64,000 nucleotides of DNA. Source: Ridgeia piscesae. Lineage: Eukaryota; Annelida; Polychaeta; Sabellida; Siboglinidae. Position numbers and translations under genes: made by a program. Positions 7,401 to 59,601 of the stretch are shown piece after piece. Each line of letters starts with the position of its first letter. The first letter of the stretch is position 1. A model generated the notes under the pieces. It saw only the letters and a list, made by a program, of their open reading frames with translations, ran no database searches and was not told where the DNA came from. The stretch is from positions 51,001 through 115,000 of the forward strand of contig JAODUO010001189.1 in the NCBI GenBank assembly GCA_025642075.2, written 5' to 3'.

Positions 7401-8884
7401 CATAACACCCACGATGGCAACAATACCAATATATTTACACCCACACAGTCCATTTGCATACACATATCTTGATATGTTGAACTGGGAAAAGTCTCAAATA
7501 AGACAATTTCAGTCCAGGTGCACGAATTTCATAACATTAGCTAGGTAGGCGTCGAGACATTAATAAACCTGTTCAACTTCCAATGACAGAACCCATACGG
7601 GTGTCGCAAATCATATGCAGTTGGTCATGTCATGATCCTAAACAGTCATTCGCCTGGTGCAGTGCCGCCCAAAGATACTGCACATATAACTGCTCTTAAA
7701 CCTTCATCCGTGTGAGATTCAGCGTTTGCATAATGTTCTATATTACCGTGAATAAATAATGAACCTACCTTCTTTTTACCTCTTCCATCTTCCTGTTTAA
7801 GCCGGCCGTCGTTTTCTTACACGCAATTCTTTCAAACAAAAAAATGCTTGACACCGGTAAGCCGTGTTGATAACGTATTACAACAACACCAATTATCTGT
7901 ATAACTCAACACACTGCTCTCCAGATGATGCAGCTTAACTTCCAAGAAGATGTATTGCTGAATTTGAAACTGTCTTCCATCGCGAACGAATCTTGTTATT
8001 GACGTAAGCGACTGTACAAGTGCGATGACGCTTTTTAACCAAACGCTGCCCGGTGACATTCGGGCCTTGATGGCACGCTCCGCCGTAAAAGCGAAGAAGC
8101 CTTAAAAGTTACACAAAAAGCGCACGGCGTTCATCGCGTTTTTTTATACAAACACTCCTTAATTAAATTAAATTAAATTAAATTAAAGGGGATATATCGC
8201 GTTTTGGAAAGAAACATAATTATGTTCTGATCATTTTACATAGAAATGGTATGTCCTAGAAATTAAAATCCAAGATATACAGAAAGCGCCGTTGTTTTTC
8301 TTAAATAGCCCAGCAACGTCTAGGTTCTGTACCAAGAATTTTGATGGAATTGTCAGCGATTTAATTCATTGGTTGACGTTAAAATAAGAGTTTTTTTCAA
8401 AAGGATGTGCCAGGGATACTAGAGTGAAGGCTGGTACATATATATTCAGCCGCAGCGACCCATGGCGCGCGAGGATGCGTTAGGTGGACCCGTGCATTTC
8501 TTAATTATTGTATCGTACTGCGGCTGCATCGACTTTGAGAAACTTATAATACAGCACTGAAAGAGCATGCAAAAAGAATTATCCATCAGATCCGCCCAGA
8601 TTTTTTTATTTGTCTTATTAACTTGTCACTGAAATTAATTGTTGATTAAACATGTGATTTTTCATAACAAAAATTTAATATAAGGTTTCAGTTTTGGTTA
8701 CCAATTAATCTCTTTGATTTTATGTTATTAAGATATTTGAATGTGATGCAAATGCCTACGACGACACTCTGAGGGTGAAACACAAAAATGCATTTATATC
8801 AGAACGTCAAAATGGATATATCGCATTTTGCCCTCAAACCCTCCCAAATATACAGTGGATATCTTGACAGAAACGTAGTTTTGA
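4493..8884. other. Non-coding stretch with a CpG-richer patch at 7780-8160
   Basis: 5630-5830 is rich in gattcca/attccaa words, a degenerate repeat. 7780-8160 has many CG dinucleotides (gcgaacg, ccggtgacattcgggcc, gcgcacggcg) and on the minus strand a good donor (AAGAAG|gtaggt, about 7768), so it might be a promoter and first exon of a leftward gene; no further exons were found. A (TTAAA)n run lies at 8160-8187. Confidence 0.4.
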
Positions 8885-10741
8885 AGAGGTGCCCGTTCAG
8901 CTCTAAGCTATTTGAAAAGGCCATCAACTCCCAATTAAGCACTCGTTTTGAGAATATGTTCAAGCCTTCCCTCGGTGCTTTCAGGCGGGGCATGGGGTGT
9001 CAGTCCACTCCGTTGAGACTAGTAGAGGATTGGCGCAAGGCACTTGGCAGCCATAAGTATGTCGCAGCCATACTCATGGACTTGACAAAGGCCTTTGATT
9101 GCCTCCCTCACAGCCTGCTCTTAGGTAAACTCAGTGCTTATGGCCTTTCTGATAAATCATGCAGTTTAGTTAGTAATTATCTCAGCAACAGGAAACAGCG
9201 AGTGAAATTAGGACCTCACCACAGTGAGTGGACTGACATCGTCAGAGGTGTACCCCAATGCTCTATTCTTGGCCCTCTTCTTTTCAATGTTTTTATTGCT
9301 GATATTTTTCACTTTGTGGATAAGTCCTCTCTCTATAATTATGCTGATGATAACACCCTGTCTTATGCTCACTCAAATTCTGACACTCTCATTCACACCT
9401 TGCAACAAGACTGTACTTCTACTTTACAGTGGTTCAATATCAACCAAATGAAGGCTAACCCATCCGAATTCCAAGCAATTAGCTTCGGCAAGAGGGGAAC
9501 AAGGGACATAACAAATTTTACTTTTGAAAACACTACCATTCACTGTGAAAACTCTGTTGTCCTTCTCGACATTGAGATTGATCATTCGTTAACTTTTAAC
9601 ACACATATCGCTAACATCTGCAAAAACGCAGCTAGACAATTAGCGGTCTTAAAACGTCTCGGTCATCTCCTTACTCGACAAGGGAAACTTGCAATTTTCA
9701 AATCATTTATAACATCAAACTTCAACTACTGTCCTTTGATCTGGCATTTTTGTAGCCAATCTAGCACCAAAAACTTTGAAAATATCAAGAGAGAGCACTT
9801 CGATTTATTTACAATGATTATTAATCCACGCATCATGACCTTTTAAAGACCGCTAACACCGAACACCTTCACGTTAAAAGGATAAAAGAAATGGCATGCG
9901 AAGTATTAAAAATTATAAATAATATTGCTCCAAGTTTTATTCAAAATCTCATCACGCTAAAATGTTCCCAGTATTCCATGCGAAAGGATAACACTGCAGT
10001 TGTCCCTAAGGCAAACACGTCTAATATGGACTTAAATCATTTGTCCACGATGGGCCCCGGATCTGGAACAGCCTGCCAAATGAAATGCGAAAAAGTAAAC
10101 TACGGCGAGTTTCGCAGACTGATCCGGAATTGGGATGGCCCATCATGCAATTGTTCTATATGCAGGTAAACAGCTAACAGCTAACAGCTAACATGTTTGT
10201 CGCCATGCCAATATTATGAATATAGCTTTCATTGTATGCATGCAATATGGATATGTGTAAAACATTGTAAAGCCTTAATTTATTCTTTAGGTCTATTTAT
10301 TTGAATGTTTTATTAATAAAAACAAAGTTTAGTCAAATAATCACAGAAATATGTTTTAATGTCTTAAATTATTTTAATTAGTTTTATATATACATATCAT
10401 GTATTCTGTACATTTCAACTTATTATATTTATGCTAATGTCTTAAATTATATATTATTTTAACTAATATACTTTGCATGTTTTATGTACCATTTTCAATC
10501 GCTATGATTGCCCAGAGTGAAAAAAATATTATTATACATGCATATAATATTCATTTTGTACTCATTACCCGTATTTTATATGTTTTATTGGTGTCATTTT
10601 AACATACTCTGTATGCTTTTTATGTTTTATGTCTCGTTGCTTTACACTTGTTTGTCGGAAAATAGCTCAGATGACCGAATGTTATCAAATTCACATGTAA
10701 ACCGACGTTAAATAAAGCTTCTTGTATCTTGTATCTTGTAC
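8885..10741 (+). mobile_element. Non-LTR retrotransposon (LINE), 5'-truncated, decayed reverse transcriptase
   Basis: The reading frame 8788-9846 contains an RT domain: LMDLTKAFDCLPHSLL, GVPQCSILGPLLFN (the usual G is Cys) and NYADDNTLSY. Recognisable RT begins near 8890 (SSKLFEKAINSQL). After 9846 the frame shifts; 9891-10169 continues with MACEVLKIINNIAPSF and a terminal YGEFRRLIRNWDGPSCNCSI, with another frame slip around 10040-10100. The 3' end at about 10741 has an AATAAA and a (TCTTGTA)n tail, typical of tailed LINEs such as the CR1/Jockey groups. No endonuclease is left. Inactive. Confidence 0.85.
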
Positions 10742-11696: not shown

Positions 11697-11836
11697 ATGA
11701 ACCCGTCAATAGCTATTGCGGCCGTATTCATTGGTTGCTGCAGCAATCTTGTTTTCTTGGAACTTCTCATAACGTGAGTGACTTCTTCATTAACCACCGG
11801 TTTTTTGGTTTTATTCGTCTTGTCTTGTTCTAGAAT

Positions 11837-14183: not shown

Positions 14184-15317
14184 TATATATATATATATAT
14201 GTTTATTTATTTATAAATTAATTCCACAATTGAATGGTTTTCAGAGAATACTTTATATCATTATATATTAAGATAAGATAGCTTTATTGCCATGTGTTCT
14301 TATTGTAGTTACAATAAAACATTGGAATGTGTAATGATATTGGTCGTTGTGCTAGTACATTCACATGACAATACATTCACATGCACCAAATGATGATGAT
14401 AAAATATACTACTACTTTAACTAAATAAATAAGAACAATCACATAATAAGGTCCGAATAAAAAGTTTTTCTTTATAACATCGATAAATAATTGATACGAT
14501 GTAGTAGAAATATATTAGCTTAAAATGTAAAATACGAAATAAAATAATATATAATAAATTATGATAAAATATACACACTAAAAACTCATCGGAAAGAGCA
14601 ATACGTGTTTGCTGCAGGTGGGAGAAAAATCACTTCTATTTTGACAGGGCTTGAACGGCTAAGGGGAAAAAGCGAGTACTAAAGCAGTTGGTCCTGGTTT
14701 TGATGGATCTGAATTGGTGACTAGATGGAAGAGGTTCAAATAGGTCATGGGCAGGATGGGATAAATCTTGAGAGATGAGAGTGGCTCTTCCTAACAGGCG
14801 CTGCTGATACAGTATTTCAAGACTGGGAAGGTCTCTGCCGATGAAGTAGTTTTCACACCTCTGTTTAATCTGAGCATTTCCTTCTGTGTAATCGACCCAA
14901 ACGATACAGAAAATATCAGAACACTCTCGATTACAGCTCTGTAAAAGTTGAGCATGACCTGTGTGGTCAAACCAAACGATCTTAACCTTCTTAAAAAGTA
15001 CAGCCGCTGCTGGGCCTTTTTGACAATATTAACAACATTTAGCTCCCATTTAAGATTACTGGAGATTGTAGAATCGAGAAATTTGAACTGTTGGACAATT
15101 TCAACTGTCCTGCCACTGATCACAAGAGGCGAGGGAGGAGAAGATTTCTTTCTCATAAAATCCACAATCATTTCTTTCGTTTTATTTATATTAAGTTCCA
15201 GATTGTTATCGTTGCACCAACTGATGAGTTTGTTTACTTGATCCCGATATTCAGATTCATCAGAATTTGTTATTAGCCCTCTCACTGTAGTGTCATCGGC
15301 AAATAATTATATACACT

Positions 15318-15365
<48 letters not shown>

Positions 15366-18300
15366 CATACATACATTACATAGTTACGACATGTGTGGAT
15401 ACTTTTCTGCTTAAATTCTGGTAGATTATATTTATAATTTCAAGCCTACCCGGTTATGTCGATTAGTAAAGAGTTTCCCTAGCATAGCAGTGATGTCATT
15501 GCTCTGCGAATTAGGGAAACAGTTGCGGTATTCGCAGAGCAGGTAGCAGAGAACAGACTATCCAGACCATTCCACTATTATAAAATAGTGGTCTAGTATT
15601 TCTGCATTATGTAATACACACACCCTAACCCCTATTTTATAATAGTAGACTGGTCTGGATAGGCTGTGCGCACCAAAACTGACATGATTCAATTTTTCCT
15701 GTGGATGTGTAGTTCCAAGCGACGCCATTGCCTTTACTTGACACTTTTGTAATACTTTGCTTCAACTCGTCGTTGAATTTGTGCACTTGTTAATAACTAA
15801 TAATAGCTAATTAATTAGTACAAACAAGTATTGAATACAGTAATTTTATTACTCTAGTTAATTTGTTTCAAATCCATGAAAACCGTATTTTTTTAGTTAT
15901 ATAAATAAAAAATTGCCACTTTTAATCAAACTTTTATCAACAGAAAACACCAAAATGAACTAATTTTGTCATTATACAAACAACAATTGTGCTGTTTTTC
16001 CATAATAAAAAATTACCTATCACCTCATTACCTATTGCATTAATTTAAGCCTATTTGTTTCCCAAGTACCTTTTTGCTTTGGAACTCCCTCCCTCAACAT
16101 GTCGTAAATCAGAATAGCCTGAATACATCTAAGGACAATATCCAGACTTTGCACTAGTCCACATTATTTTGACATGACTAGTTCTTCTGCATGTATTAGT
16201 AGTAGTGTTTAAAATTCCTGATCACTTGCCATTTCCTTCCACCTGTATCCTCAGCAAGTTGAGGTTAGGCACATACATGACAAAGAAAAGAAACGTAGGC
16301 AGTTTCGTTGATCCCACATTGTCTGTGTCTGTGCTGTCTGAGAAAAGATGCACTGAGTATAACTAAAACTTTGATCCCTTTTATCTGGTGTCTGTGCCAG
16401 GGGAAGCAAAAGATCCCATGCAGGGAAATAAAAACTGTTGTGGACTTACTAAGTGGATGTCCATAACAGTTTTTGCTGCGTAAGTCCCTGACTCAAGTGA
16501 ACATGTTGTTTTCATCAACCCACCAATGTGTTGCACTTGTGTTACCAAATAGCGATCAGACTTCTAGAATGTCTGCCCACAAATAAAATCATCCCAAGAC
16601 AATGATCGATTATAAAAATCAAGTTGAACTTCCCATTACTATATACCTAATACATGTGCTACTGATCGATAGTCCAGTGTACTATTACATTTGGTGTACT
16701 CTTGTTTGTTTACAGGGAATCACCAAGCAGTGGCAACCTCATCACCTTTGTGCAGTTTGTCTTCATCAGCTTTGAAGGCTTATTCTTTACTTCAAAGTTT
16801 TTCACAAAAAAACCTACAATACCAATTTCGTAAGTAATACCGTGATTTGTAATGGCATGTTGTTACACTTGTAATGGCATGTTGTTACACTTGTAATGGC
16901 ATGTTGTTACACTTGTAATGACATGTTGTTACACTTGTAATGGCATGTTGTTACACTTGTAATGGCGTGTTGTTACACTTGTAATGGCATGTTGTTACAC
17001 TTGTAATGGCATGTTGTTACACTTGTACTCTTGTAGCGTCCCACATAGAAGAGTATTCCTATATCCTAAAAACATAATATGAAAGTTGGCATTGGCAAAA
17101 TCAGTATCTATAGTTTCGGTTGAAGGACTATTACTATTGTATTATTAATATTGTTTTGACAACTTAATGTGTTCATGCTAATGATTAAAATAAATTTCTG
17201 TTCCGTAAATAATTGTTGTAGCGACTGCACAAATTGATGTGCAGTTTGTGAAACGTGACACTAAAAAAATGCACATAAATTTGAGTGTACTATGCCAATG
17301 ATTCTGTGGTACCATCCAAAAGTTGAACAGCACTGCCACTTGCTAGTAATTGGTAGTTATCAATGTTTGTTATATAATGTGGGCTTCATTTGTTGTTTGT
17401 TTTGACATGTCCCCCAATTTGATATTTGTACGCCCCCCAATGTCATACTTGATTTGACACGTCCCCTTGTCTTGTTGAGCTCGTTCTCACTTGTAGAATG
17501 TTTGCCACTATGGCGTCCATGCACATGGTGGACGTGATGTACCAAAACGTCCTCCACCTCGTAAACGTCTCCATTCCCATACAGCTCATGTTGCGGTCGG
17601 TGAGTGGACAGTGTTGGCGTAGCTTGTAGACATCCAGTATGTGCTGCCTTCACCCCACTGACCGGTCACTCTCACCAGTCAGGTTGTGTGGGGTTTCATG
17701 CTAAACAGAATGCCGAAAAAATGAAAGCTTGGGAAGTTACCACAACTTGGTGGGTTTGAATTTTTAAGATGGAACATATTTATTTGACAGAATGTGAACT
17801 TTGTGAAGATTAATACTATGGTTTTATGTCAAAACGTGCTGGTAGTCATTGTTTCATCGTTATGAGGAATGGTTTTACCTTTGAAATTTCACAAAAATGT
17901 GGTGGTTTTCCAGGTTTCATTTTGAGTTGGACTTTTACTGCTGATAGTTCCATTTGTGTGCTGATGAAAAAGTCCTGATCATTAAGTGTTTGCATGACAC
18001 CATTCCCAAGGCTTTCACTCTCTTTAATTTATTGTTTGCTGAATTGTTATGGTTTGAAAGTGTTTTGATTGCTACAATAAACGGGAGTTTAGTCATCCAT
18101 GATCCAGTCACTGCAGTAACTATCATTTTGCCAATTTGATGCCAACGTATTATTTATTGCATTAATTACAAGTTTACAATCAACTTTAATATAAGTATAG
18201 CTATGGAAATGTTTGTGAAACGATCCCTTGCTGCAGTAGCCCAATAGACCAGTAGTTGTATAAAAAAATTCTCACAAATGTTGTGTTTTAACGTTTAGTT

Positions 18301-21300
18301 GTAGTAGCGGTGTTGTGGCTTTTTGGCTGTATTTTGGATGCAGTTTCATCAAACCTAATACATTCCTAACCATAAATTCTGAACCTAATATACATATTTT
18401 ACAGTATAAGTTTATAACCACGCAGTATCTCCTATATTAGTATTTCGGCAAAGGTGTGCATAGGTATTAGAGAAGAGCCAGTGTGTGTGTGAGATACAGT
18501 GGGTGTTTTGTTTGGTCGTTGGACTGTGTGTCACTCACAACAATGCCCAGCGAACTTTGATTGTATCCACAGTGAACAATAAGCACAGACTGGATGGTCA
18601 GGTTACACTAACACTGTCCACACGGGAAACCATAACCATTCTGATTGCATATGTACAACTATACATGTATACTTAAAGAAGGACACACTCTAGATTAACT
18701 TGTGTACATTTCTTCGATGTGCTTAAGTACTTCGACAAAGTACTTGTGCTGTAAACAAGCTCATGTACAGTGCTGGATATTTTGATACTTAAACAAGTAC
18801 TCACAATACATTAGGTCCGTGCTCATAGCAGTTGTAACTGTACACTACCTTCAGTCAGTACTTAGAAAGTACTCATAGTATACTAGGTCGTTACTCTAGG
18901 TTATTGCACATTACATTAGGCACATTATATTAAGTCATTACAGTACATATAATTAAGTCAGTACTTAAGTACTGTTTATTAAAATCATAATTTTACTGAA
19001 CAAATACATGATCGTAATACATATGAATGAGTTAGAATTTTATTGGTAACGGAATGTTTTATTTATAATAAAATTTAAAAAGTTTAAACCATTGTTCTGA
19101 TTGACTGAAGTCAGCCCATTTGTTAAAAAAATTGCAGGTAGCCAAAAAGGGAGCTTTCCATTGAGGTTGCATTTATGGGGGGGGGTGTAGACTTTATGAA
19201 TGGATGCATATTCAGTCCACAGGGCATTGTAAACATGTGGGTATCACACAGGTCACATGTTTTATAGGCTACAGTTACATTATCAGTACCTGTCATTAAA
19301 TCTGCTTATGAATAAACAATATCACTATGCAAAAGTACCTCACGTTGGCATGGCAGTCAGTTATCATGAAAACCAAACTTGTTACTATAAAGGTAAGCAT
19401 TTAACCAGCTATGGCCAGTCAATACTTATAAGAGTACTCACATCGCACTCAACAAGTACTTAAAGATGTAATCACAGTGCTCACAGTACGTTTTAAGAAG
19501 TACTCACATCACACAGAGTCAATATTTTAAAAAATACTGCCAACACACTCAGTCAGTACTTAAAAGCTATTCATTGCACACTACATCAGCACTTGCAAGA
19601 GTACTTTTAGCACATTAAGTCAGTACTTTTAAAGAAGTGCTTAAAGCACCCTTGGACAGTACTTGTAATAAATATTCACAACACACTAAACGTGTACTTA
19701 AAGAAGTACTCGCAGCATACTGGGCCAGTTCACAAACACATACATAGTAAATCAATACTTGAATAAGTACTGAGAGCACACTAGGTGAGTACTCAAAGAA
19801 GTACTCACAGCACACTAAGTCAGAAAGCAGTCCTCACATGTTCACAGTACACTAAGTAAGTACTTAAAGAAGAGGTACTTAAGTCAGCATGACGTTGTTG
19901 CCTTTAAGTGTTGAGTTGTTTTGCTTGTGCTTGTCACGTGTTCTGTGTTGCCTTCTCCCCTCAGGACCTACATCTTCATGGTGGCGCAGTTCTTTATTGT
20001 CAATGTTGCCAACAACTATGCACTCAACTTCAATATACCAATGCCTCTACATTTGATATTCCGATCGGTAAGTATTGCCACACATGCCTGGTTTTATCTG
20101 CGCACCTATCCAGTTACCTGTGTTACTCTCTGTGGCGAAACATGCATGTTACAGTATGAAGGCTTTCTGGTCTTAACACATTGCAGTAATATGCTGATAG
20201 TTGAAGTAAAGCTTAGGCTGTTAGTTTATGATTGTAGAGTTTAACTGTTAGTCTCATTGTATTACCCACAGTTAGATAAGTATGTTTTGGTTTATTGCAG
20301 ACGAAAGGTTAAGTAACTAGAAAATGTACAGTTTATGCTGGTAGAATGCAATATACATGCATTTATTTTATGGCTTGGTTAGCAAGATAGTATTATGTAT
20401 TTGTATCACTGGCCTTTACTCGTGTTTAAATGTACATAATGCATTTGCTTGCGAGAATAATAATAATGAGCAGCCTTCCTAGGTGAAGTATTCTTGAATA
20501 AATGTGCATGAATTGTACTTGCTATTGGTAATTATTCGGATCACAAAGCTTGCAAAATGCTTCATTTCAAAAAAAAACATTGTTTTTGTTTCAGGGGTCA
20601 TTGATAGCAAACCCTTAATCCTAGGAATAATCCTATTAAAAAAGAGGTAAGTCACCTGTACAACTTAATAATAATAATATGCTTTACCTGTATATCAAGT
20701 GCAGCACATTGATCTATGACGTTAGGACTACATAAATTCATTATTATTTTATACAACAAACATGACTGACTACTCAGTAAGCACATTTCAGCTAGTTTTG
20801 TGTAGGTTCAAAATTACCCACATTCTGTAATCCCAAGATACATGTGTAAGTGAAATGTTGGATATATTTTGGAAAAGAACAATTTACTAAAAAGAGAGTG
20901 AACTTCTGTCCGAGTACAAACATAATTTAACTTGTTTTTGTAGATGACTTAAGTAAGAAAAAAATTATGACAGACCTTGCTTCTGTAGAGATGTCAGACT
21001 AATCATATAGATATTATATTGTACAATTACAGATGTGCAGTATTCAAATTATGACATTTCTCTTCAGCTACACTGTATCAAAATACGTCTCCGTGGTGAT
21101 GATCACAGTTGGCATCATCTTGGCGACAGTTGTGTCAGCCCGAGAAGCAGTGAGTGTTGCCCTCAGATAATCTCCCTTGACAAATTTAGAATTCATAACA
21201 AAGTAGCTAGGACAGTTTCATGAAGCCACTAAGAACGTTCCCAATGCCAAGCTTGATAAGTGTCTTAGTAAATGACGCGATTTTTGTTCAGTACGCTTAC

Positions 21301-24300
21301 AAAGGAGTTTACGCAAACATATGCGGTTAAGTAATTGCATAACTTTATGTACATTTTATGAAACCAGCCCCAGCTCTCAGAAGAAGTGAGAGCAAGTGTG
21401 AAGCCATGGCCTCCTAGTGGTTAGAACATCAGACTTTCAGAGTGAGGCTGTCTGCTCCCGCATCTGAAATTCTCTATTATTCTAATTTATTAGACAGTTA
21501 TATTAAAAATATGCCTCAGTTGAAATAATCTTCCTGAACATTTAACACTACTGCTCTAATAAAAGTCAGAGCAAGTTGTGCTGGTTACATATGCGAAGCA
21601 ACCATTTGAAATACGTGGCTTGAAAAGTGAGGAGTGAAAATAATGTAAAAAAGACATTTGCCAGGTTATTTTGCCCTCTGAAGTTGGAAGGCTCTGGTGC
21701 TTGTATATAACATAATTTTGTTCTAGACTGTGACCAAATTATCTTTAATGTTGCTTTATTTGCAGAATAGTTCAGATACAAAGTTTACTGATGAGGAGAA
21801 GTTAACCAACATGCTATGGATGGTTTTTGGTATGTACTTGAACATGTGAATGTAAAATTGAAATTTGAATTGAATATGTGAATCATATGTACATAATACC
21901 AGGGGTAGTGATTATTGTGATGTGCAAAACTAATTCTTTCCACACTTAATATTAAGCTGTGTAACGTGGCGTAACTAACTGCAACTTTGCCAGCCAGGTG
22001 AACCATCTAGCATGTAGTATCGCATATGAAACACAAGTTTGTTCGAACTATAACAGCATTATTATAAAATTGTCTTGGATTCACCAGTTACAAGTGTGTA
22101 TCCCTGTCTGTATAGGTAGAACTGTTTAATGCAGCTGCTGTTTGCAGTGTAGTATTGTTGTATATAACTGTTATATACGCTCTGGGTAATTATGTTGCAT
22201 ATGTGTATGTATATTGATTTGTATGACAGATACGTTTCATTTATCTTATATTATATACTAACAAATACCCCAATAACATGTGGACACATGCCTAGTCGTA
22301 CATTAGTATGTTTCATTTTCTTTCTTCTTCTGCACATTGCATATCTTTTTATATAAATTTGGTAAACAATTATTTTAGTGGCTTCTGTGATAATAATGGT
22401 AAAGTCTTAACAGGAGTCACTGACCCATTTAGTACATAAAATTATTATTTAAAGGGCAAAAAAGGCAACGGTTTGGTGTTATGCACCTAAAAGAGTTTAC
22501 ACAAGCTAACCATTTGCATCTACAATCAAATTTTTCGCATTAGTAGTTTCCTCAGAATGTGGTGTTAAAGTGGGTAAATCAAGCTAAATCACAGAAACCA
22601 TGACTGGGCCCATCTTGGTCCATCAACCAATCAAAACCAGCTTCTATCTGCACTTTGGAAAAGTATTAGGTCATAAAGTCGTCTGCTGGTTCAGTTGTCA
22701 TAACAGAGAGCCAAGCGGTTCGCTAAAAGTGCCTTACATCGGTTTACAATGAAATCACGACAGCAATATGCCACACTGTTCCTCATAGGCTTGTTGCAAC
22801 AGTACAGTGAAAGACAGTATCAGTAAGCTGTCTTTTTGTTACCCTTTGAATCGACCAGAATTGAAACGGTAGTCCAGTGATTCGTTGGGACAGTCACAGA
22901 CACAGTGCAAATGACAGACGACTGGGTTGGATTGACCCAACTATGAAAACGACCCGCCACCTGCCACCACCTGCCAAACTCTTCTCACTTATCTTACATA
23001 CATATACATACACTACGTTATAAAATAAAATCACTTCTGTTCCTCTAACGAAGAAAATTCACGAAACAAATGTGCAGATATCGACGGCAACTTCGTTGGC
23101 CACTCTGCGGTACCGTAAAATCGCTATATAAGTTAGGTTTACACAAAATGCCGTCAGACGGCACGTTTGTGCGCGCGAATATTTATAAACTTTACTTCGA
23201 CTGCAATAGTTTAATTACTTATAAATAATATAATAATAATTAATTATTATTATCACTATGATTTGCTATTAAAAATACAATAAGAAGAAAACTACCCACA
23301 TATAATATTTTAAAATAAATAATGAAAATACATGTGTCGAAATAATTAACGAAAGTGACCTATCAGTATTAAAAAGGACCAACACAAATTCCATAACAAC
23401 AATAGTGATAAATTAATGTAAATGTAATATATAATTAAAATGGTAAAATAATTACGACGTAACAATATTTTTAATTCAGCACAACCGTTACACACACATG
23501 ATCATAAGAAAATATTAGTGAAGCTATATTTTCTACTTATGAATGATAATTTGTTATTATTTTCACCACCAGATATGTAATAATAATGATTTTTGGACAA
23601 GACACTTTATTAATTATCGGGACAATAAATCACTGAAATTTTAACAAAATATGAATATATGGGAAATACATAGTGGTAGAAAAAGAAGGTTTTGGTGCAT
23701 TTAAAAATAATAATATTAATATGTTAATGATTTGAGTTATTATTGCTAAAACATTGCTTATGTAATATAAGCTTGCATGCTCACTCACAGTACAGTACAT
23801 GCAGGATGTTTATAGAAATATTGATAAAATAAACAATGTGACTTCATTGAACAACACATAATTTCCATACCTTTTATGACTAATAGGAAATTATAGATAA
23901 TTATGCAGACACATGTATTTTTAAATATTACCTTTGGGTGGCATTCTTTTTATTGCATATACTTTAATAACGGTATGTTGTGAAGTGCCACAAACAATTA
24001 TGGATTTGGCGCTACATAAAATAAACTATTAAAATTTTAAATTTTTATATTAAATTGTTACTTTTTATCAACTCTATTAGGCCCATATCACCAAAGCGTT
24101 GCCTTTGTTAGCCGTTTACAATTTTCTGCAGACCAGTGATGCTGCTAATTATTATTATATTATTGATAATTAATTAAACTAATTCGCGCGTACAAATGCA
24201 GTAAGGTTTATAAATATTCACGCACACAACCCTGCCATCTAGCAGTATTTTGTGTAAAGCTAACTTATAATAGCGAGTTTACGGTAGCAATCTGCCGAGA

Positions 24301-27300
24301 TTTGTGCGTTTCTTTTATGAATTTTCTTGTTAGAGGAATACAAGTGATGTTTTGTAATGTAGTGTATGTGTATGTATGTAACAAATGTGAGGAGAAGTTT
24401 GGCAGCTGTTGGCGGTCGTTTTCGTGGTTAGGTCAGAAGGTAACAGATAATAATACGCATGCACAGTTCACGCTGACCAAGAAGACTTAACTATGTCATT
24501 TTGTTTCTAAAATGGCGTAGTCTATAGACGTTCTATGGCTATGTGTCCTAGATTTTTTTCTTGATAAACCACGTTACAAATATGATTGTTGTTGGAAGTT
24601 GTTACTTTTGATTAACTCTGTTAACCCCATATGGTCAGAACATTGACTTTTGTTTCCCTTTAACATAGGTATTGTATATCTGAATATACATATTTGTGTT
24701 TTATGTTGATTGTACTTGGTTCTAAGGAAACTTTCTTGATCTTGTTCTTGTTGTGTGTAGTTTCATGTGTTACAAGTGTGTATTCTTCTCTGTGTAGTGT
24801 GTAGTGTGTAGTGTGTAGGTAGAGCTGTATAATGCAGCTGCTGTGTGCAATGTATGATTGTGGTGTCTGGTGTCATTTGTTGACAAGTGTCCATTGTCTC
24901 TGTGTTCAGGTATACTGCTGCTGTTGTTTGCGCTGTACATGTCGGCCAGAATGGGGATCTACCAGGAGACTGTCTATGCACAGTTTGGCAAACATCCTTC
25001 CGAAGCACTCTTCTACAATGTAAGAGACCCTGCCAGTTGATCCTTATGTGCCAGAGTGTCGCTGTCACTATAATTAGATCAGGCTGATCTCTGGATTGCT
25101 ACTTGGTGTCCTTCACCTCTGGGGGCTGGCAATTGCAGGCACATCTTTGTAGTTGAGCTGCTTTCTGGAATTGTGGGATATGAACAATGAATGGGACAAT
25201 GAACAGCTGATTCTGTGAACTTTTCTGTGTCACGGTAATGTAACCCACAATACAACTTTCTCTTTATGTAAAAGAAAAAGTTGTTTGATGGTGGTCATTA
25301 TGTTGGCCAATATTTTAAATATATGTATAACTATTTACACGTCTAATTAATAAAAAACGCATTCTTTTTTATTAGTTAATTGGCATATGAATACAATTTG
25401 CAAAAAGACTGTGTAATCTAGGAACTGTTGTAGGCTTCTCTTAGGTGCTGTACATGGGTTTGTCATAAATGCAATGTTAAATTTATTATTGATTTAGTAT
25501 TATTTCTCAGCAGTGAGTTATAATATGATTTCACCTTTGCAGCATTTCCTTCCTCTTCCTGCATTCCTGTTTCTCTCCAAAGACATCTACAATCACATGA
25601 TCGTCTTCAGCCAATCAAGTGAGTGTCAACGATATAAAATTATGTTTTGATACTGTAGAATGTATTGATCTATGCAGACTTAAATGTATGGGCATTGGGC
25701 AAGCATGCGAGCACAGGCGCAGTGCGTACTCGCTATCTGTAAAAACAAGCCATGGTCGATCAGGTCACCACTACAAAACATTTCTAAATACTCAGATCGC
25801 AATAATCTCTTGCCATATAATAGAACAAATATTTATTTATGGCACCATATTCTTGTTTTCGTGCAGAAATGTCTATTGACGCAGCTTGAGGGTAACAAGG
25901 CGGCATCCAGTGGTGAAAGATATACAAATTTGAACAATTATTTCAAATATACCATAGTTCCATGCTCATTAAATCATGGTAACATATCCTCTAAATGTTT
26001 GGGTAATCGTTGTTAAAGTGTTTCAACCCCTTTAAGGTCAAACAAAGAGAATAAAAATGCATGTATGATTTTTATTATCTGAATAAATTTTCTCCAGTTT
26101 ACTATGGTAAACTGGAGAAAATTAATTCAGATAATAAAAATCATCACCTCATTACTTAGCTCAATTTGGCTCATTTGCAAGGGTGACCTTAATAGTGAGG
26201 TTCCACTGTATTGTCTGACTGTTGCATTTAATCTGCAGCTCTGTACGTTGTGATTGATGCTGTTACATTCTAGATTAACCAGTGCCTTGTGTTGTGTCTG
26301 CTTTCAGCACCAATTGTTCTGCCGTTTCTGGGCATTGCTGTGCCGAAACTGTGGCTGTTTCTCATTGGGAACACCCTCACCCAGTATCCTTTGTCCACTG
26401 AGTAGCTCCCAGACACATACTCGAGGGGATTCTTATGCATAACAAAAACATTAAAATATGTACATATACCGTATTACATGTATCCCTAATAGACGCGCAC
26501 TACCTAATAGACGCCCACCCCCATTTTTAGAGGTGAAATAATCCATGAAAATTTCTTTAAGTGATGCAAAAATACAACAGAGTGAACGCTACAATTATTA
26601 GCAAAGATGGCACCCAGACTAATGCTATTCGAAAATAACAATTGTGGGTAGGGCAACCGAACCGTTGCTGGCGAGACTTTTGTAAGTAAAGTCGCGCCTC
26701 GTTATAACGCGGTAGTTGGGGTCCATGAAATGGAACCGCGTTGTAAACGAGGCGCGTTATAGATTATATTCCGCCAGGGGCGCCACCACCCACAAAACGC
26801 CACAACAGCAACCGAAGCCAATGTGCTTGTTGCGCGGTGTATGCGTGATTTATAAAACTAACGGACATTGAAACCAACGTAAATGTGTATTACGTTAAAG
26901 TAATATACACTGTCGAATGTTGAACTGAATACATCTTGCGAATGTTGTACAGTTTTGAAATAAATTCAGAGCCAACGCGCCTCGTCTGGCGATGCGAACT
27001 GAGGCGGAGCGATAACACAGTACGCGGTCGCGGTCTAAAATAACCTTGAACTCAGCAGCCGAAACGCACAAATGAATTGACATGTTGCCGAAGTCGGTCA
27101 AATATTAATACTTATACTAGTTGCGCTCACTATTGGCTTAATTTCATCTTTTAATCAATCCCAAAATATAAATTTAGGTCGCACATTTACCGTGCCGATT
27201 TATAATGCAATTCACGGTGGTTCGAGGCTACCGCGGTTTACACGCAGTTGACGAATGCGTATATTTGCGCACAAGTAAATGTTTTTTCGTATACGTAGTG

Positions 27301-29320
27301 AAGAAAACATAACATAACATTAACCTGCCATTTCAGTACCATTATTACTTTTCGTCACCGCCCGATTCGTAAGCAATTTAATTGCCATTTACAAGCCGGC
27401 GAAGGCGCACGTTCGCGGAAGCCACAGCGAACGGGCGCCTTCGCCGGCGAAGCCACAGCGAACTGGCAGGAGACAAACGCGATTGATATCGGGGCAAACA
27501 AACAGGACTTTGTACCAAATTTACTGTGCCTAAAGTTAATTAAATGCAATCAAAGGAATTGGTAATGCTTTAAACAAACACTTAATAAATTACCACACAA
27601 ACCAAGCGCTGGTTACACAATAGATCGGTTTCCGTTTGAAAAACGATTGGATTGGTGCCGACGGCAGAGCAGAAGCCAGGGGCACAACGAACTCAGCAAC
27701 GCAGTTGTACTTCTGTGTTAAATTTCTTAATATCATTAAATTGTTTCTAGATACACCTGTACAAGACAAACATGAGGATTTCATAAACATAAGTGACAGT
27801 TAATTACAGCGTTATTGTTAGCTGTAGCGCCCATTTCCCCCTGGCGGCAGAAATTCGGGGTCCACGACCGACCGCGTTATAGCGAGTCGCGTTATAGCGA
27901 GGCGCGACTGTATATGGTAAATGTTTACCACAAAGAGGGCTTTTATTTTTAATTTTATGGTACTCTCAGAGAGAGGCCGTCATGTACATCAAACAAAGGG
28001 CAGATTTGTTTACGTTGGATTAAACGCTGACTGTTCGCGTAAAGTTTCTGAGCGACACCAACGAAACAACATAAAAATAATTTGAAGAACACGTAGATTG
28101 TACCGAAAGCATTACGCAGTAAAATGTTGATTTAAAAAGAAGTATGTCTCGGGTCATTCACTTGAAGGCGCTGTACATATGCGTACTTCAGTGGCGCGAC
28201 ATCGCGGATTAGTTATCTACTCTGTTTAGAAGCCGATAGAATGGGTGACCACGTTCGTCCCACCTTTGAGAAATTAATAGACGAGCACCCAAGCCTTCCA
28301 ACTCGCATACTGCGCGTCTATTAGGAACAATACGGTAATATAAAAAAAATTAATATATAATTGCAAACTGTAGGAAATGTTTTATCACTGATACTTCAGT
28401 GGGGTGTGCTGACCTGTGATTGGGCCATGCTGTGTCGTTTGCCACGAGCAGACACTATCATTGGAAAGTAGTGCACTCCATTGGCGTAGTATTTCATATT
28501 AACTACTGGTATCAGCACTAGAAGTATAATATATTTTTTCTTATAGCACCACATCCATAATCTTTTTTTGTGGTGCTTCACAACAGATTACTATTATAAT
28601 ACATAAAAATTTAATTTTTAGACAATAAGAAGAATACTAATATTTGTTTTTTAAATAATAAAAAATATGTGTGTATGTATATAAATAACAACAACACAGC
28701 ATTAAATAACAGCATTTCTAAAAAATAAGAAGTAAATCAATCAATAAATTACATAATTCACTATAGTCATAAAACATACATAATAATTATTATAATAAAT
28801 ATAGCAAATAATTCGATATCAGTAATACTGAGAAATTAATGTACTATATATGTAAGGTTAACAGTAATAAATAATGTACTAAATGCTAAAAATGTAAAAA
28901 CAAATACATCTACATAACAATAATACTAATAAAAAAATGTATAATGTTTATGTTTAGATAATAGTAATACATATTTTATTAAACAGATGTAATATATGAC
29001 CACAAATCGCCTCGTCCTGATATAATACATAAATGTTGGCCATTCCTTGACGCAGCCCCAGATATGTTTGTATCCGCTCCGTGTTCATCCTGACAACTGA
29101 GTGCACGTCGCTGAGCGTGACCTTGGTCGTGACCTTGCGCAAGTTCCTCTCGCTCCTCTTCTCCATCATCTACTTCAACAACCCTTTCACGCTGTACCAC
29201 TGGCTCGGCACGGCGTTCGTCTTCAGCGGCACGCTCCTGTTCACCGATGCATTCTCCCTCCTCAACAAGGCATATTCACACATGCGGACAATGCTCTCAG
29301 AAAAGAAAAAAACGGCGTAG
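11697..29320 (+). CDS. SLC35B4: SLC35B4 nucleotide-sugar transporter (UDP-xylose/UDP-GlcNAc), ten exons
   Basis: Exons read directly, all GT-AG: 11697-11773, 16716-16829, 19965-20067, 20595-20646, 21068-21149, 21766-21829, 24910-25019, 25543-25618, 26308-26383, 29062-29320 (TAG). The product is about 336 residues, the usual length for the family, and aligns along its length with animal SLC35B4: N-terminal GCCSNLVFLELL, then NNYALNFNIPMPLHLIFRS, MSARMGIYQETVYAQFGKH, EALFYNHFLPLP, and FILTTECTSLSVTLVVTLRK. The family is a multi-pass Golgi/ER antiporter of UDP-xylose and UDP-GlcNAc. The C-terminus KKTA fits a dilysine KKXX ER-retrieval signal. The start is the first ATG of exon 1 and matches the family N-terminus. 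Exon 4 has a net frameshift at 20613-20614 (AAC, extra CC, TTA) giving an in-frame TAA at 20616; every other exon is intact, so a sequencing indel is likely but real loss is possible. A second exon-3 copy is listed separately. Confidence 0.95.
11837..11945. repeat. (CTA)n followed by (TAG)n, a trinucleotide palindrome, SLC35B4 intron 1
   Basis: About 19 CTA units run directly into TAG units (ctactactagtagtagtag), so the two halves are reverse complements. It begins 63 bp after the exon 1 donor. Confidence 0.9.
13909..15358. repeat. (AT)n tracts in SLC35B4 intron 1
   Basis: Separate AT dinucleotide runs at about 13909-13971, 14123-14202 and 15318-15358. The last abuts the LINE fragment at 15303. 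Confidence 0.9.
14600..15303 (-). mobile_element. LINE 3' fragment, C-terminal part of reverse transcriptase, in SLC35B4 intron 1
   Basis: Minus-strand translation from 15303 starts inside the RT active site (FADDTTVRG), then LELNINKTKEMIVDF, FKFLDSTISSNLKWE, KKAQQRLYFLRRLRSFGL and FYRAVIESVLIFS. Further on, in another frame, it reads HPAHDLFEPLPS and FRSIKTRTN to about 14600. This resembles the C-terminal RT region of CR1/L2/Rex-type LINEs. It is 5'-truncated exactly against an (AT)n tract at 15310-15358. Two or more frame breaks; inactive. Confidence 0.8.
15563..15667. repeat. Imperfect hairpin in SLC35B4 intron 1
   Basis: gactatccagacca...ctattataaaatag (from 15563) pairs with ctattttataatagt...tggtctggatag (to ~15662). 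Just upstream, 15480-15550 has gcagtgatgtcattgctctg, also seen at 12257-12277 with the same ttcgcagagcag neighbours. This is a small dispersed palindromic repeat. Confidence 0.7.
16848..17027 (+). repeat. 22-bp tandem repeat, 8 copies, SLC35B4 intron 2
   Basis: Unit tgtaatggcatgttgttaca plus ct, nearly identical across eight copies (one atgaca, one ggcgtg variant). It starts 18 bp after the exon 2 donor. Confidence 0.92.
17497..17599 (+). CDS. SLC35B4: Alternative (probably mutually exclusive) exon 3 of SLC35B4
   Basis: Lies in the intron between exon 2 and canonical exon 3. It has a good acceptor (ctcacttgtag at 17486-17496) and donor (TCG|gtgagt at 17600). It is exactly 103 nt, like canonical exon 3, with the same phases: one base completes the split Ser codon, then 34 codons to phase 0. 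The reading frame is open. Aligned without gaps to canonical exon 3 it shares Met5, Asn17, Asn23, Pro27, Leu30, Arg33 and Ser34, with many conservative hydrophobic matches, ending LMLRS versus LIFRS. GC-rich codon use resembles the real exons. Because 103 is not a multiple of three, including both or neither exon breaks the frame, so the two should be mutually exclusive. It replaces the segment containing the conserved NNYALN motif, so it could change substrate choice. It could also be a decayed duplicate; transcripts are needed. Confidence 0.72.
18720..19875. repeat. Degenerate AGTACT-rich repeat between the two exon-3 copies of SLC35B4
   Basis: Loose ~40-bp units of the form agtacttaaagaagtactca plus cagcacactaagtc occur densely at 19415-19870 and more loosely at 18720-18990. 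AGTACT and AAGTACTT are self-complementary, so many units can pair with each other in RNA. Confidence 0.7.
21395..21480 (+). repeat. Possible tRNA-derived SINE head, SLC35B4 intron 5
   Basis: atggcctcctagtggttagaacatcagactttcagag looks like a degenerate tRNA 5' half with an A box (tggcctcctagtgg). The expected B box (ggttcgantcc) is only weakly present as gtctgctcccgcat. The tail and ends were not found. Confidence 0.4.
22449..24663. mobile_element. 2.2-kb TTAA-flanked non-autonomous element with ~250-bp inverted repeats (Kolobok-like), SLC35B4 intron 6
   Basis: Ends are TTAA|AGGGCAAAAAAGG (left, TTAA at 22449-22452) and, read inward on the minus strand, TTAA|AGGGAAACAAAAG (right, TTAA at 24660-24663). 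A TTAA duplication with AGGG termini fits the Kolobok superfamily. A second, longer inverted repeat lies inside: 22955-23215 against ~24175-24440, sharing blocks such as acatacactac, ttcctctaac, accgtaaa and ttacacaaaat. The centre is very AT-rich and has no transposase-like ORF. Confidence 0.65.
26065..26144. repeat. Near-perfect hairpin, 38-bp arms, 4-nt loop, SLC35B4 intron 8
   Basis: 26065-26102 (atgatttttattatctgaat...) pairs with 26107-26144 with one mismatch. Confidence 0.9.
26469..28335. mobile_element. Outer TA-flanked non-autonomous DNA transposon, SLC35B4 intron 9
   Basis: Left end CCGTATTACATGTATCCCTA, then atagacgcgca; right end (minus strand) CCGTATTGTTCCTAATAGAC, then gcgca. 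Both termini are directly flanked by TA (26467-26468, 28336-28337), as for Tc1/mariner-type insertions. The interior is interrupted by a second element at 26689-27910. No transposase ORF seen. Confidence 0.65.
26689..27910. mobile_element. Inner nested TA-flanked element (pogo/Tigger-like ends)
   Basis: Left end aAGTCGCGCCTCGTTATAAC, right end (minus strand) CAGTCGCGCCTCGCTATAAC, each followed by GCG. Flanking TA dinucleotides at 26687-26688 and 27911-27912 form the target-site duplication. CAGT plus CTCGNTATAACG termini resemble pogo/Tigger families. It is about 1.2 kb, CpG-rich compared with its surroundings, with a GC-rich inverted repeat (ggcgaaggcgc and gcgccttcgcc, 27398-27455). Short ORFs inside are not recognisable. 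Confidence 0.7.
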
Positions 29321-34852: not shown

Positions 34853-37800
34853 CTAAATGCCGTACATGTCGCGTGTGTTCTCATAGCTAGCCTTGAGCAC
34901 GACATCGATGTGGATGCCCTTGAGTCTGGCCACTTCATCAGCCACTGTGATCACCATGCCTGGATGGCAGAACTCCATATCTGTTTTCGGGATCTACAAC
35001 GACATGACGCAACTATAATGTTTCTATCTATACTGGTTCACTACTGCTATTACATAGATGCATAATTAACGGGAAGAACCATTCGATGTATAGTCCCGTG
35101 GTCACCCCATGACCAAGCATCACATACTTTTAAAATCAAGATGTTATATAAAGTAACATTTTTATGGATGCTGACCACACGGTTTCCAATATCTATACTA
35201 ATGGATTACTTTCTATTCTGCATTTAAAAGTTATTGTTTGTTGTTGCAACTGGATATTTCTGAGCTATACATTCAGTACACAGAAAGAAACTGATCAGTT
35301 TTAACTAATTGTGTAATGGTCTGGTATGCCAAGTACACGTGTTGACAGATAGTTTGGTATACTGATTGGTGAGGTGCGTTATGGAAGACTGGAAGTTCTG
35401 CAATTAAAAGTGGGTAACTTTGATGTAGATTTGTTTGCCATTTACGGTATGGGGCCAACACTGTTGACGAGTAGTGACAAAGAAAGAAGCCAGTACTTAC
35501 CCTCCAGGGCACAAAGTAGGGTGTGTCCGTCTCAATGAGGAGCTTGTCTAGGGGGATGTATCGGGCGACATCCTTAAGTGGAAAGGCGCGACGGCTGCGG
35601 TGGGTGACCAGTGCCGTCAGTCCGATGTAGGAGTTGGGGAACTTGTGCAGCCAGGTGCGTGCCTCCTCCCACGTGCCCGTGAAACAGTGCCTGTGGATCT
35701 TGTGGTTGCGTGGGATGTGCTAGAAACACACATAACAGTACTTGTGGCTTACCGTGCAGACCATAGCTTTATGTAGAGACCCGTCCACCCGTCATTTGGA
35801 CAGGTAAAAACGAATATGGACTGGTAGAAATATGGGTGGATGGGTGGTGGACGGGTAAAAAATAAAGGCGCAAAAAAGAATTTTTTTTTGTTATGCCTTG
35901 AAAGTGAGTGAAAATGGTGTCACATGTGTGTTTGTAGTCCATTTCAGGTCATCAGACACATTTAAAAGTTTGTAAACTGGCTTAACAGTTAACATCCATG
36001 TGTCCTCCAAAACATGTGTGACTGGCAATAATTTTATCCTGCATAAAGCTCTGGTGCAGACTGCCAGACTGGAGTGCTAACTTACCGTGGTGATGTGATT
36101 AGACGTTTCTGCTGTTATTCGTATGAAATTGTGACAAACTGACAAGTGTCGCTGAAGACTGTGTGTTGTTTGGCTGTCGTGTTCTCCTAGGTGCTAAAAC
36201 CCTCTGGTTTTCAGGGAGAACCCAGATAGCTATTGTGTGTCTGTGTGCGTGCGTCATAGCTTTACGCAGAGACCTGTCCACCAGTCATTTGGATGGGTAG
36301 AAATGTTAGTGGATGGGTAAAAAAGTAGGAGCATAAAAGGTCTTCCAAAATCATAGATATTGTCAGTTATGCCTTGAAAATGGGTGTCACATGTGTGTTT
36401 GTAGTTTAATTTTGGTTATAAAGCCCATCTCAACTGACTTGTATGTAAATGAGTTACAACCATGTGTCCATCAAAGAAATGTGTGACTGGCAAAAATACG
36501 ACCCTGTATAAGGCCCTGGCAAGCGCGCGTGTGTGGGCACGTGTGCTGGTCTCACCTTTTCTAGTTCGCTGATGATGTCTGACTCAGACTCGCGTGAGTG
36601 GATCACAATGGGTTTGTTGATCTCAGTGGCCAGCTTCAACTGCCGCGCCAACACTTCCTTCTGGGCCTCCTGGTGCTGGTAGAACCTACAAGTACAACAA
36701 AGTCTTGGCGGGAAAATTGGTGGATGTAGAGGTTTGAAATTGGTGGTGTATAAAATTTGAAAAACAATCGGAAATATTGATTGATAAGTATTATTCTTGT
36801 GTTAAGGTTATTCATAAAGTGGTACTGGACATATATTGAGTAGTAGTTTTGGTTAAAGTTGGTTAGTTAACAGTATTTTTGAACAGATTAGTATAGTGGG
36901 TGATAAAAGGGTAATCTAGGCTTCGACAAATTGTAAACAAGATTGAGCAAATCTCTTTATTTGATATAGTATATAAGAGATAAAGCAATAAGAGTAACAA
37001 CTACATATGTAAGATAAAACTGTGAATAGGTATCATTGTTATTAAAAATAAACAAGCGTTTTAGTAGGAAACCCTTGTTTGTTTATATAGGTAGTGTCCA
37101 ATGTTTCCGCTAGGGAACGGTACCAGTTCAGACTAAACTTATTGTTCATGGTAGCATAGGTAGTAAGTTGTTTATAACCTAAAGTGTGCTGCAGTTGCTG
37201 TACCCAATAAACAAACAGTCTTTCTAAAGACTAAGTTGGTTTATACTAAGAGTTGATTTTGACAAATCGTAATATGGCACCTGGCAAGCGGCAAGTGAAG
37301 GCAAGGAGGCACTTGGTGTGTAACCACTGCCACAGCTTGGTGGATTTTGCCGTATCGGGGTGCGGAAAAACTTGGTCAGAGACAACGGAGGAAGGGTTTA
37401 CGTTCCAATGTTTAGGGTGTTGGAAAGTGGACTGTCTGACAGCAGAGTTAGCTAGGCTAACGGATATTGTGAAGGGGATGCAGAGTGGAGGGAGGGTGAT
37501 TGCAAGGACAACAAATGGAGAAAGAACAACAGGAGACATGACATGCAGGAAGGTGACAGGGGAGAAAGTGACAGTAGAGAAGGAGGGAGGGACAAGGGGA
37601 CAGGAGATGAGAGAAGTAGATGCGACAGGAGCTAAGACGAATGGAAGAAAGGAAGTGAGAGGTGATATGACCAAACGGAAGTCAATAACAAGGACGATGA
37701 CAGGAAGAAAAGAGACCAGAAAGAAAGGAACAACAGAGAAAGCGGCAGGGGAAAAGTCAGCAACCAGGGAGATGCAAAACGGAGGAGCTACTCTGAAGCA

Positions 37801-56376: not shown

Positions 56377-59505
<3,129 letters not shown>

Positions 59506-59518
59506 CTCAGCAGCGCAC

Positions 59519-59519
<1 letters not shown>

Positions 59520-59601
<82 letters not shown>
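59520..59601. repeat. (AT)n(AATA)n directly beside the most 5' P450 exon
   Basis: The tract begins within about 15 bp of the presumed acceptor of the exon 59331-59505. Confidence 0.95.

Follow-up and report, generated by a model that had tools for sequence, protein, structure and literature searches.

Exchange of one exon for another within a membrane transporter is a known kind of alternative splicing. In the mitochondrial phosphate carrier SLC25A3 the exon pair is named 3A/3B, and in the metal transporter SLC39A14 (ZIP14), which is not homologous to SLC35, the pair is 4A/4B. Here, we describe what is probably a further case, in a 64,000-nucleotide stretch of the genome of the vent tubeworm Ridgeia piscesae (assembly GCA_025642075.2, contig JAODUO010001189.1, hereafter C1189, positions 51,001 to 115,000; the whole stretch is called the window), in which the nucleotide-sugar transporter gene SLC35B4 carries a second copy of exon 3. 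Both known systems are among the mutually exclusive exons treated in PMC5740500. SLC25A3 is likewise a solute carrier with an exclusive pair inside a folded domain, one per transcript, but it differs in fold and family, and a tissue switch is known there; exons 4A/4B of SLC39A14 are likewise exclusive and exchange a stretch of a transporter protein, for which a change in transport is the proposed outcome.

Human SLC35B4 belongs to the same gene family as the tubeworm gene, and the available portion of PMC6245738 tells its two splice variants apart by length, 331 and 231 residues, and not by a swapped exon 3. The same source describes the cargo as disputed between uridine diphosphate (UDP)-xylose, UDP-N-acetylglucosamine (UDP-GlcNAc), UDP-glucuronic acid (UDP-GlcA) and guanosine diphosphate (GDP)-fucose. 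Human SLC35B1/AXER is kin by sequence (E = 2.1e-8 with the Lamellibrachia protein), and the part of it that aligns with exon 3 contains Gln113, Lys117 and the luminal gate formed by transmembrane helices 3 and 4a (TM3-TM4a); it differs in being an adenosine triphosphate/adenosine diphosphate (ATP/ADP) exchanger, and the accessible text of PMC12267056 mentions no exclusive exon. An earlier note on this DNA, which had proposed the duplicated exon, set it against vertebrate SLC35B4; that setting falls away, the host being an annelid (Siboglinidae).

Results

A second exon 3 in intron 2 of SLC35B4

The canonical exon 3 (exon 3A) was placed at 19965-20067 on the plus strand by tblastn with homologues and by its splice sites; it is 103 nt long, is flanked by ...CCCCTCAG and GTAAGTA, and encodes (S)TYIFMVAQFFIVNVANNYALNFNIPMPLHLIFRS. 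The second copy (exon 3B) lies in intron 2 at 17497-17599 on the same strand, is also 103 nt long, is flanked by ...CACTTGTAG and GTGAGTG, and encodes (S)MFATMASMHMVDVMYQNVLHLVNVSIPIQLMLRS. Both exons enter in a common phase, completing the split codon TC/N, and both exit at a codon boundary. On re-reading, the block coordinates, length, shared phases and splice sites given in the earlier note were exact. Judged by WebScipio-type criteria (PMC5740500, section 15), which ask for equal exon lengths or a difference of whole codons, with BLOSUM62 and a profile used for similarity in place of WebScipio's own score, the two are neighbouring internal exons of equal length (103/103 nt), both open in a common frame and bounded by GT-AG sites. 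Their peptides align without gaps, as had been claimed, at a BLOSUM62 score of 33 with 8 of 35 residues identical (shuffle p = 6e-5; profile 16.8 bits).

Exon 3B ends in two overlapping donors (17593-17605, plus strand). TCG/GTGAGT after 17599 scores 5.5 and outscores 99.4% of the 1193 GT dinucleotides in the gene, on generic donor frequencies. GCG/GTCGGT after 17595 scores 1.35; it would give a 99-nt exon in frame and fits the 3B-3A junction of the deposited gene model. The acceptor pyrimidine tract, at 11 of 17, is at the bottom of the range of 11-14 in this gene, and the introns that flank exon 3B measure 667 and 2365 nt.

Two repeats were seen in the same intron. A 22-nt tandem repeat (8.2 copies, 97% matches) occupies 16847-17027, just behind exon 2 and ahead of exon 3B, and a 23-nt inverted repeat (17604-17626 / 18599-18621, 83% complementary) begins 5 nt after the 3B donor, which it could mask. 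Control of 3B splicing by RNA structure was considered and set aside, since eight inverted repeats in 3.8 kb are, on a rough estimate, compatible with chance.

Resemblance beyond chance

An exon-3 profile was built from 222 usable segments of fetched homologues (109 distinct; P0001, P0123, P0148 and segments scoring below 80 were excluded). When all frames on both strands of the window were scanned, exon 3A scored 73.3 bits and exon 3B 18.0, and the next match reached 5.3. The window holds 449 pairs of AG and GT dinucleotides spaced 103 nt apart, 100 of them open; among these exon 3B ranks second (15.3 bits) behind exon 3A, the third scores -1.7, and the 98 other open blocks have a mean of -23.7 bits (standard deviation 7.1). 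Dinucleotide shuffling never reached the exon 3B score, either in 2000 shuffles of intron 2 or in 20000 of the local block. As a negative control, second copies of exons 2, 5, 7, 8 and 9 were sought, and the best non-self score was 1.0 bits; exons 1, 4, 6 and 10 were outside this control, exon 6 having no usable segments, and the segment cut-off was looser for exons 7-9 (0.35 vs 0.45). The open frame by itself is weak evidence, because the stop-free stretch (17453-17627) runs past both block ends and the block can be read without stops in another frame as well. A repeat or transposable element was rejected as the source of exon 3B, which has a single match in the 628-Mb assembly by DNA and a single match by peptide (one scored candidate each). 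Together with the neutral-decay simulation described below, the profile, shuffle and control tests bear out the claim that exon 3 is duplicated.

Age and past selection

Exons 3B and 3A agree at 47 of 103 nucleotides (15 first, 20 second and 12 third codon positions, of 34 each), and the duplication is for that reason taken to be old. Exon 3A was allowed to decay neutrally to the divergence of 3B in 20000 simulations, which used substitutions and no insertions or deletions: 22% of the products were open, 5% kept both splice dinucleotides, four (0.02%) retained the profile score, and no product combined open frame, splice sites and score. Exon 3B has a GC content of 0.82 at third codon positions and of 0.51 overall, the latter a level met by 4.0% of intron windows. 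By these sequence measures exon 3B appears to be a real alternative exon 3 on which past selection has left its mark.

An abalone isoform with a divergent exon-3 segment

Exons 3A and 3B were compared with 240 proteins, the best 120 of 166 and the best 120 of 1472 matches of two homologue searches. Nine fitted 3B better than 3A, but in eight the match included no exon-3 segment (scores of 13 or less). The ninth, P0148, annotated 'isoform X2' of the abalone Haliotis rufescens, has the only real exon-3 segment among the 240 listed that is closer to 3B (51) than to 3A (39). Over residues 64-98, which by tubeworm boundaries are the exon-3 segment, its mean identity to relatives is 0.20, vs 0.58, 0.57, 0.77, 0.50, 0.70 and 0.74 in six other segments (relatives hand-picked, 29-34 of 34 per segment); the canonical Lamellibrachia protein has a mean of 0.66 in the exon-3 segment. 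The divergence begins softly at 63-65, where the family varies anyway, and ends sharply at 98/99. This pattern looks like what an exon swap would leave in a protein, with the isoform seen in Haliotis rather than in Ridgeia.

Of 35 residues, 11 are common to Ridgeia 3B and Haliotis X2. Seven of these depart from the canonical consensus, and four (14 V, 20 L, 29 I and 33 L) are found nowhere among the 109 canonical segments. The first Asn of the NN motif is lost in both, to Gln in Ridgeia 3B and to His in Haliotis X2. Independent origin was simulated under 16 model settings, 12 of which leave sequences less diverged than the real ones; seven shared residues were attained in 0.000-0.016 of draws and the four unseen ones in 0.002-0.077, and under the three settings nearest the real divergence (LG 1.5, LG 2.0 and JTT+G 3.0) in 0.001-0.006 and 0.015-0.027, respectively. 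These significances are slightly inflated, because P0148 was chosen for fitting B over A. A tree of 32 exon-3 segments (35 residues) paired the B segments of tubeworm and abalone at 92/91 (not starred). Such comparisons favour, without proving, an origin of the B segment before annelids and molluscs split. A search with the abalone segment for further B-type proteins returned P0148 itself only, one of three candidates; this search needs shared 5-residue words and misses divergent kin. As a separate observation, the caenogastropod SLC35B4 proteins P0142, P0209, P0232 and P0240 have an exon-3 segment that is partly B-like (NVS-P-L-Q) and scores 51-59 against 3B.

The segment that is exchanged

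In an AlphaFold model of the abalone isoform (mean pLDDT, the predicted local distance difference test score, of 83.8, falling to 73-74 at residues 81-100), TM3 spans 63-85 and is followed by a turn and by TM4 at 90-112. In this model, the exon-3 segment (abalone residues 64-98) takes in TM3, the turn on the luminal side and the beginning of TM4. In the Lamellibrachia protein match given above, the segment aligns with Asn109, Gln113 and Lys117 of SLC35B1, and cryo-electron microscopy of human SLC35B1/AXER places the TM3-TM4a luminal gate in this region (PMC12267056). The proposal that 3B replaces a transmembrane segment is thus upheld by model and alignment, and can be narrowed to the TM3-to-TM4a segment. 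At the Lys117 position, A has Arg, Ridgeia B Arg and abalone B Lys; at Gln113, the residues are His, Gln and Val in the same order; and at Asn109, tubeworm A has Pro, Ridgeia B Ser and abalone B Pro. The Asn-Asn-Tyr-Ala of exon 3A becomes Gln-Asn-Val-Leu in Ridgeia 3B. Since the basic residue is kept and the lining changed, these differences fit a B form that would be a working transporter with altered cargo or kinetics. The earlier suggestion that exon choice may change substrate preference is plausible.

The gene, its exon 4 and the deposited model

SLC35B4 spans 11697-29320 on C1189, with nine constant exons in addition to exon 3, all on the plus strand. Exons 1 (11697-11773, start codon to donor GTGAGT), 2 (16716-16829, ending in the split codon TC), 5 (21068-21149), 7 (24910-25019), 8 (25543-25618), 9 (26308-26383, with a weak donor) and 10 (29062-29320, to the stop codon) were placed by tblastn and splice sites. 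Exon 6 (21766-21829), a variable loop that is absent from the deposited model, was placed by splice sites and frame, and exon 4 (20595-20646, GSLIAN...LILGIILLKK) by comparison with the Lamellibrachia protein P0122. With X at the exon-4 lesion described next, the Pfam domain UAA (PF08449) scores 357 bits in the A version and 318.6 in the B version, at a cut-off of 26.2. A second SLC35B4 copy or haplotig was sought in the assembly and none was found; eight of the 12 matches lie on C1189 (E = 2.3e-5 or better), and the other four are weak (E = 0.004-0.37).

As assembled, exon 4 carries a frame lesion at about 20612-20615, with two extra bases after GSLIAN relative to the frame of its relatives. 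Because exon 3A in its usual frame equals Lamellibrachia at 34 of 35 residues, the lesion is taken to be a recent allele or an assembly error. The assembly was made from Illumina libraries with SOAPdenovo (PMC9921365), and a real broken allele is possible because such assemblies are less prone to small indel errors than raw long reads. The deposited Ridgeia protein P0123 (NP493_1188g00036) holds the peptides of exons 1, 2, 3B, 3A, 7, 8, 9 and 10 letter for letter. The deposited models were produced by EvidenceModeler from homology, ab initio prediction and RNA-seq of vestimentum muscle (PMC9921365), any of which may have brought 3B into P0123. The model looks like software working round the exon-4 lesion.

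Elsewhere in the window, frames that by eye resemble reverse transcriptases of retrotransposons lacking long terminal repeats (non-LTR) were seen at 8779-9846 and 38316-40349 on the plus strand and at 14636-15306 and 60676-61470 on the minus strand; that at 14636-15306 sits in SLC35B4 intron 1. Also labelled by eye, and on the minus strand, are pieces of a TatD-like deoxyribonuclease gene at about 35273-45065, including a 773-codon open frame at 42744-45065, and cytochrome P450-like exon frames at about 57400-59600.

Discussion

We consider it likely that exons 3B and 3A derive from an old tandem duplication and are used as mutually exclusive exons of SLC35B4. Each would encode TM3, the luminal turn and the first part of TM4, the luminal gate, so that exon choice would yield two full-length transporters with the rest of the protein in common; both Ridgeia versions would keep Arg at the Lys117 position and differ in gate and cavity lining. 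Exclusivity would be enforced mainly by frame, since inclusion of both exons (+103 nt) or of neither (-103 nt) would cost the message. Steric interference is limited to introns of less than 50 nt (PMC5740500), and at 667 and 2365 nt the introns here are too long for it, which argues for frame as the enforcer; exons not divisible by three are included in 60% of human exclusive clusters (PMC5740500). The simplest view would be a regulated choice of exon together with loss of the frame-shifted messages. Splicing of 3B in the worm, its exclusivity with 3A and a difference in transport are what we infer from the sequences. The reading as probably mutually exclusive, which the earlier note drew from matched length and phase, gains strength from the abalone isoform with its divergent exon-3 segment.

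Several observations weigh against such a pair or against its great age. The B branches of the tree are very long, and neither a grouping of 3B with tubeworm 3A (p = 0.353) nor one with caenogastropod segments (p = 0.191) was rejected. The 3B peptide scores higher against the canonical segment of the whelk Nucella (59) than against Haliotis X2 (51), one B-type protein beyond Ridgeia was found among the matches listed, and the deposited Lamellibrachia protein shows exon 3A only. In a helical-wheel test the polar face of 3B lies at 168 degrees vs 179 for 3A (shuffle p = 0.066, not significant). With exon 4 as assembled, translation of either single-exon transcript (A-only or B-only) ends at codon 106, and inclusion of both exons leaves 371 codons open as far as the normal C-terminus, with exon 3A out of frame. 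The claim that using both exons or neither breaks the frame thus stands by exon length alone and is clouded by the assembled exon 4. Finally, in the deposited model P0123 exons 3B and 3A follow each other in tandem, exons 4 and 6 are missing, and exon 5 is read in a different frame.

Among the alternatives, the one that fares best is a variant of the mutually exclusive pair, with odds that overlap it: the pair is real, yet the B segments of tubeworm and abalone arose independently. The tree test that leaves 3B free to group with tubeworm 3A, the long branches and the single B-type protein outside Ridgeia among the matches listed all leave room for this. It must, in turn, explain seven shared non-consensus residues, four of them absent from 109 canonical segments, at counts that simulations rarely attain, as well as a best tree that unites both B segments, and we think it rather unlikely.

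A dead relic, no longer spliced in Ridgeia and lying in a gene or allele broken at exon 4, would account for the frame lesion in the sole SLC35B4 copy found in the assembly and for the odd polar residues H10, D13 and H21 of 3B in a membrane helix. Neutral decay to 56 of 103 differing sites, simulated by substitutions, nevertheless kept frame, splice sites and score in none of 20000 cases. All remaining exons read open, and exon 3A has a single difference from Lamellibrachia in 35 residues, which makes the lesion recent, allelic or an assembly error. We therefore regard a relic as improbable.

More improbable still is that 3B is added in tandem with 3A to make a longer protein, as in the deposited model or the open both-exon frame. 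P0123 reads ...LMLR-TYIF..., matching the donor 4 nt upstream that gives 99 nt in frame, and with the assembled exon 4 both full exons give an open 371-residue frame. The first arrangement would insert a second TM3-TM4a unit, and the second would read 3A out of frame (DLHLHGG...) although its usual frame equals Lamellibrachia at 34 of 35 residues; we take the open both-exon frame to be probably a coincidence. The donor of the 99-nt form is the weaker one (1.35, compared with 5.5 for that of the 103-nt form), Haliotis X2 swaps the segment rather than lengthening the protein, and the Pfam UAA score of the deposited model (261.6) is the lowest among five proteins scanned. Chance resemblance of intronic sequence, for which the merely 8 of 35 residues identical to exon 3A and the open frame running beyond the block might speak, is hardly credible given 15.3 bits against a mean of -23.7 (standard deviation 7.1) for other open blocks, no shuffle that reaches the score and five other exons without a second copy.

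If the two exons are indeed mutually exclusive, the kind of arrangement is known from SLC25A3 and SLC39A14, and this would be, as far as searches of the open-access literature show, the first such pair described for a nucleotide-sugar transporter; neither the SLC35B4 pair nor its apparent depth turned up in those searches. Any connection with glycan or tube chemistry in these animals is a guess. We propose, tentatively and with somewhat more doubt than confidence, that an exclusive pair swapping the TM3-TM4a gate predates the annelid-mollusc split, survives in two phyla or more, and provides lophotrochozoans with a second form of SLC35B4 whose cargo or exchange partner differs. Such a natural swap of gate and cavity would amount to a ready-made experiment, in the form of two proteins that differ at no more than 35 residues and have apparently been kept for a very long time.

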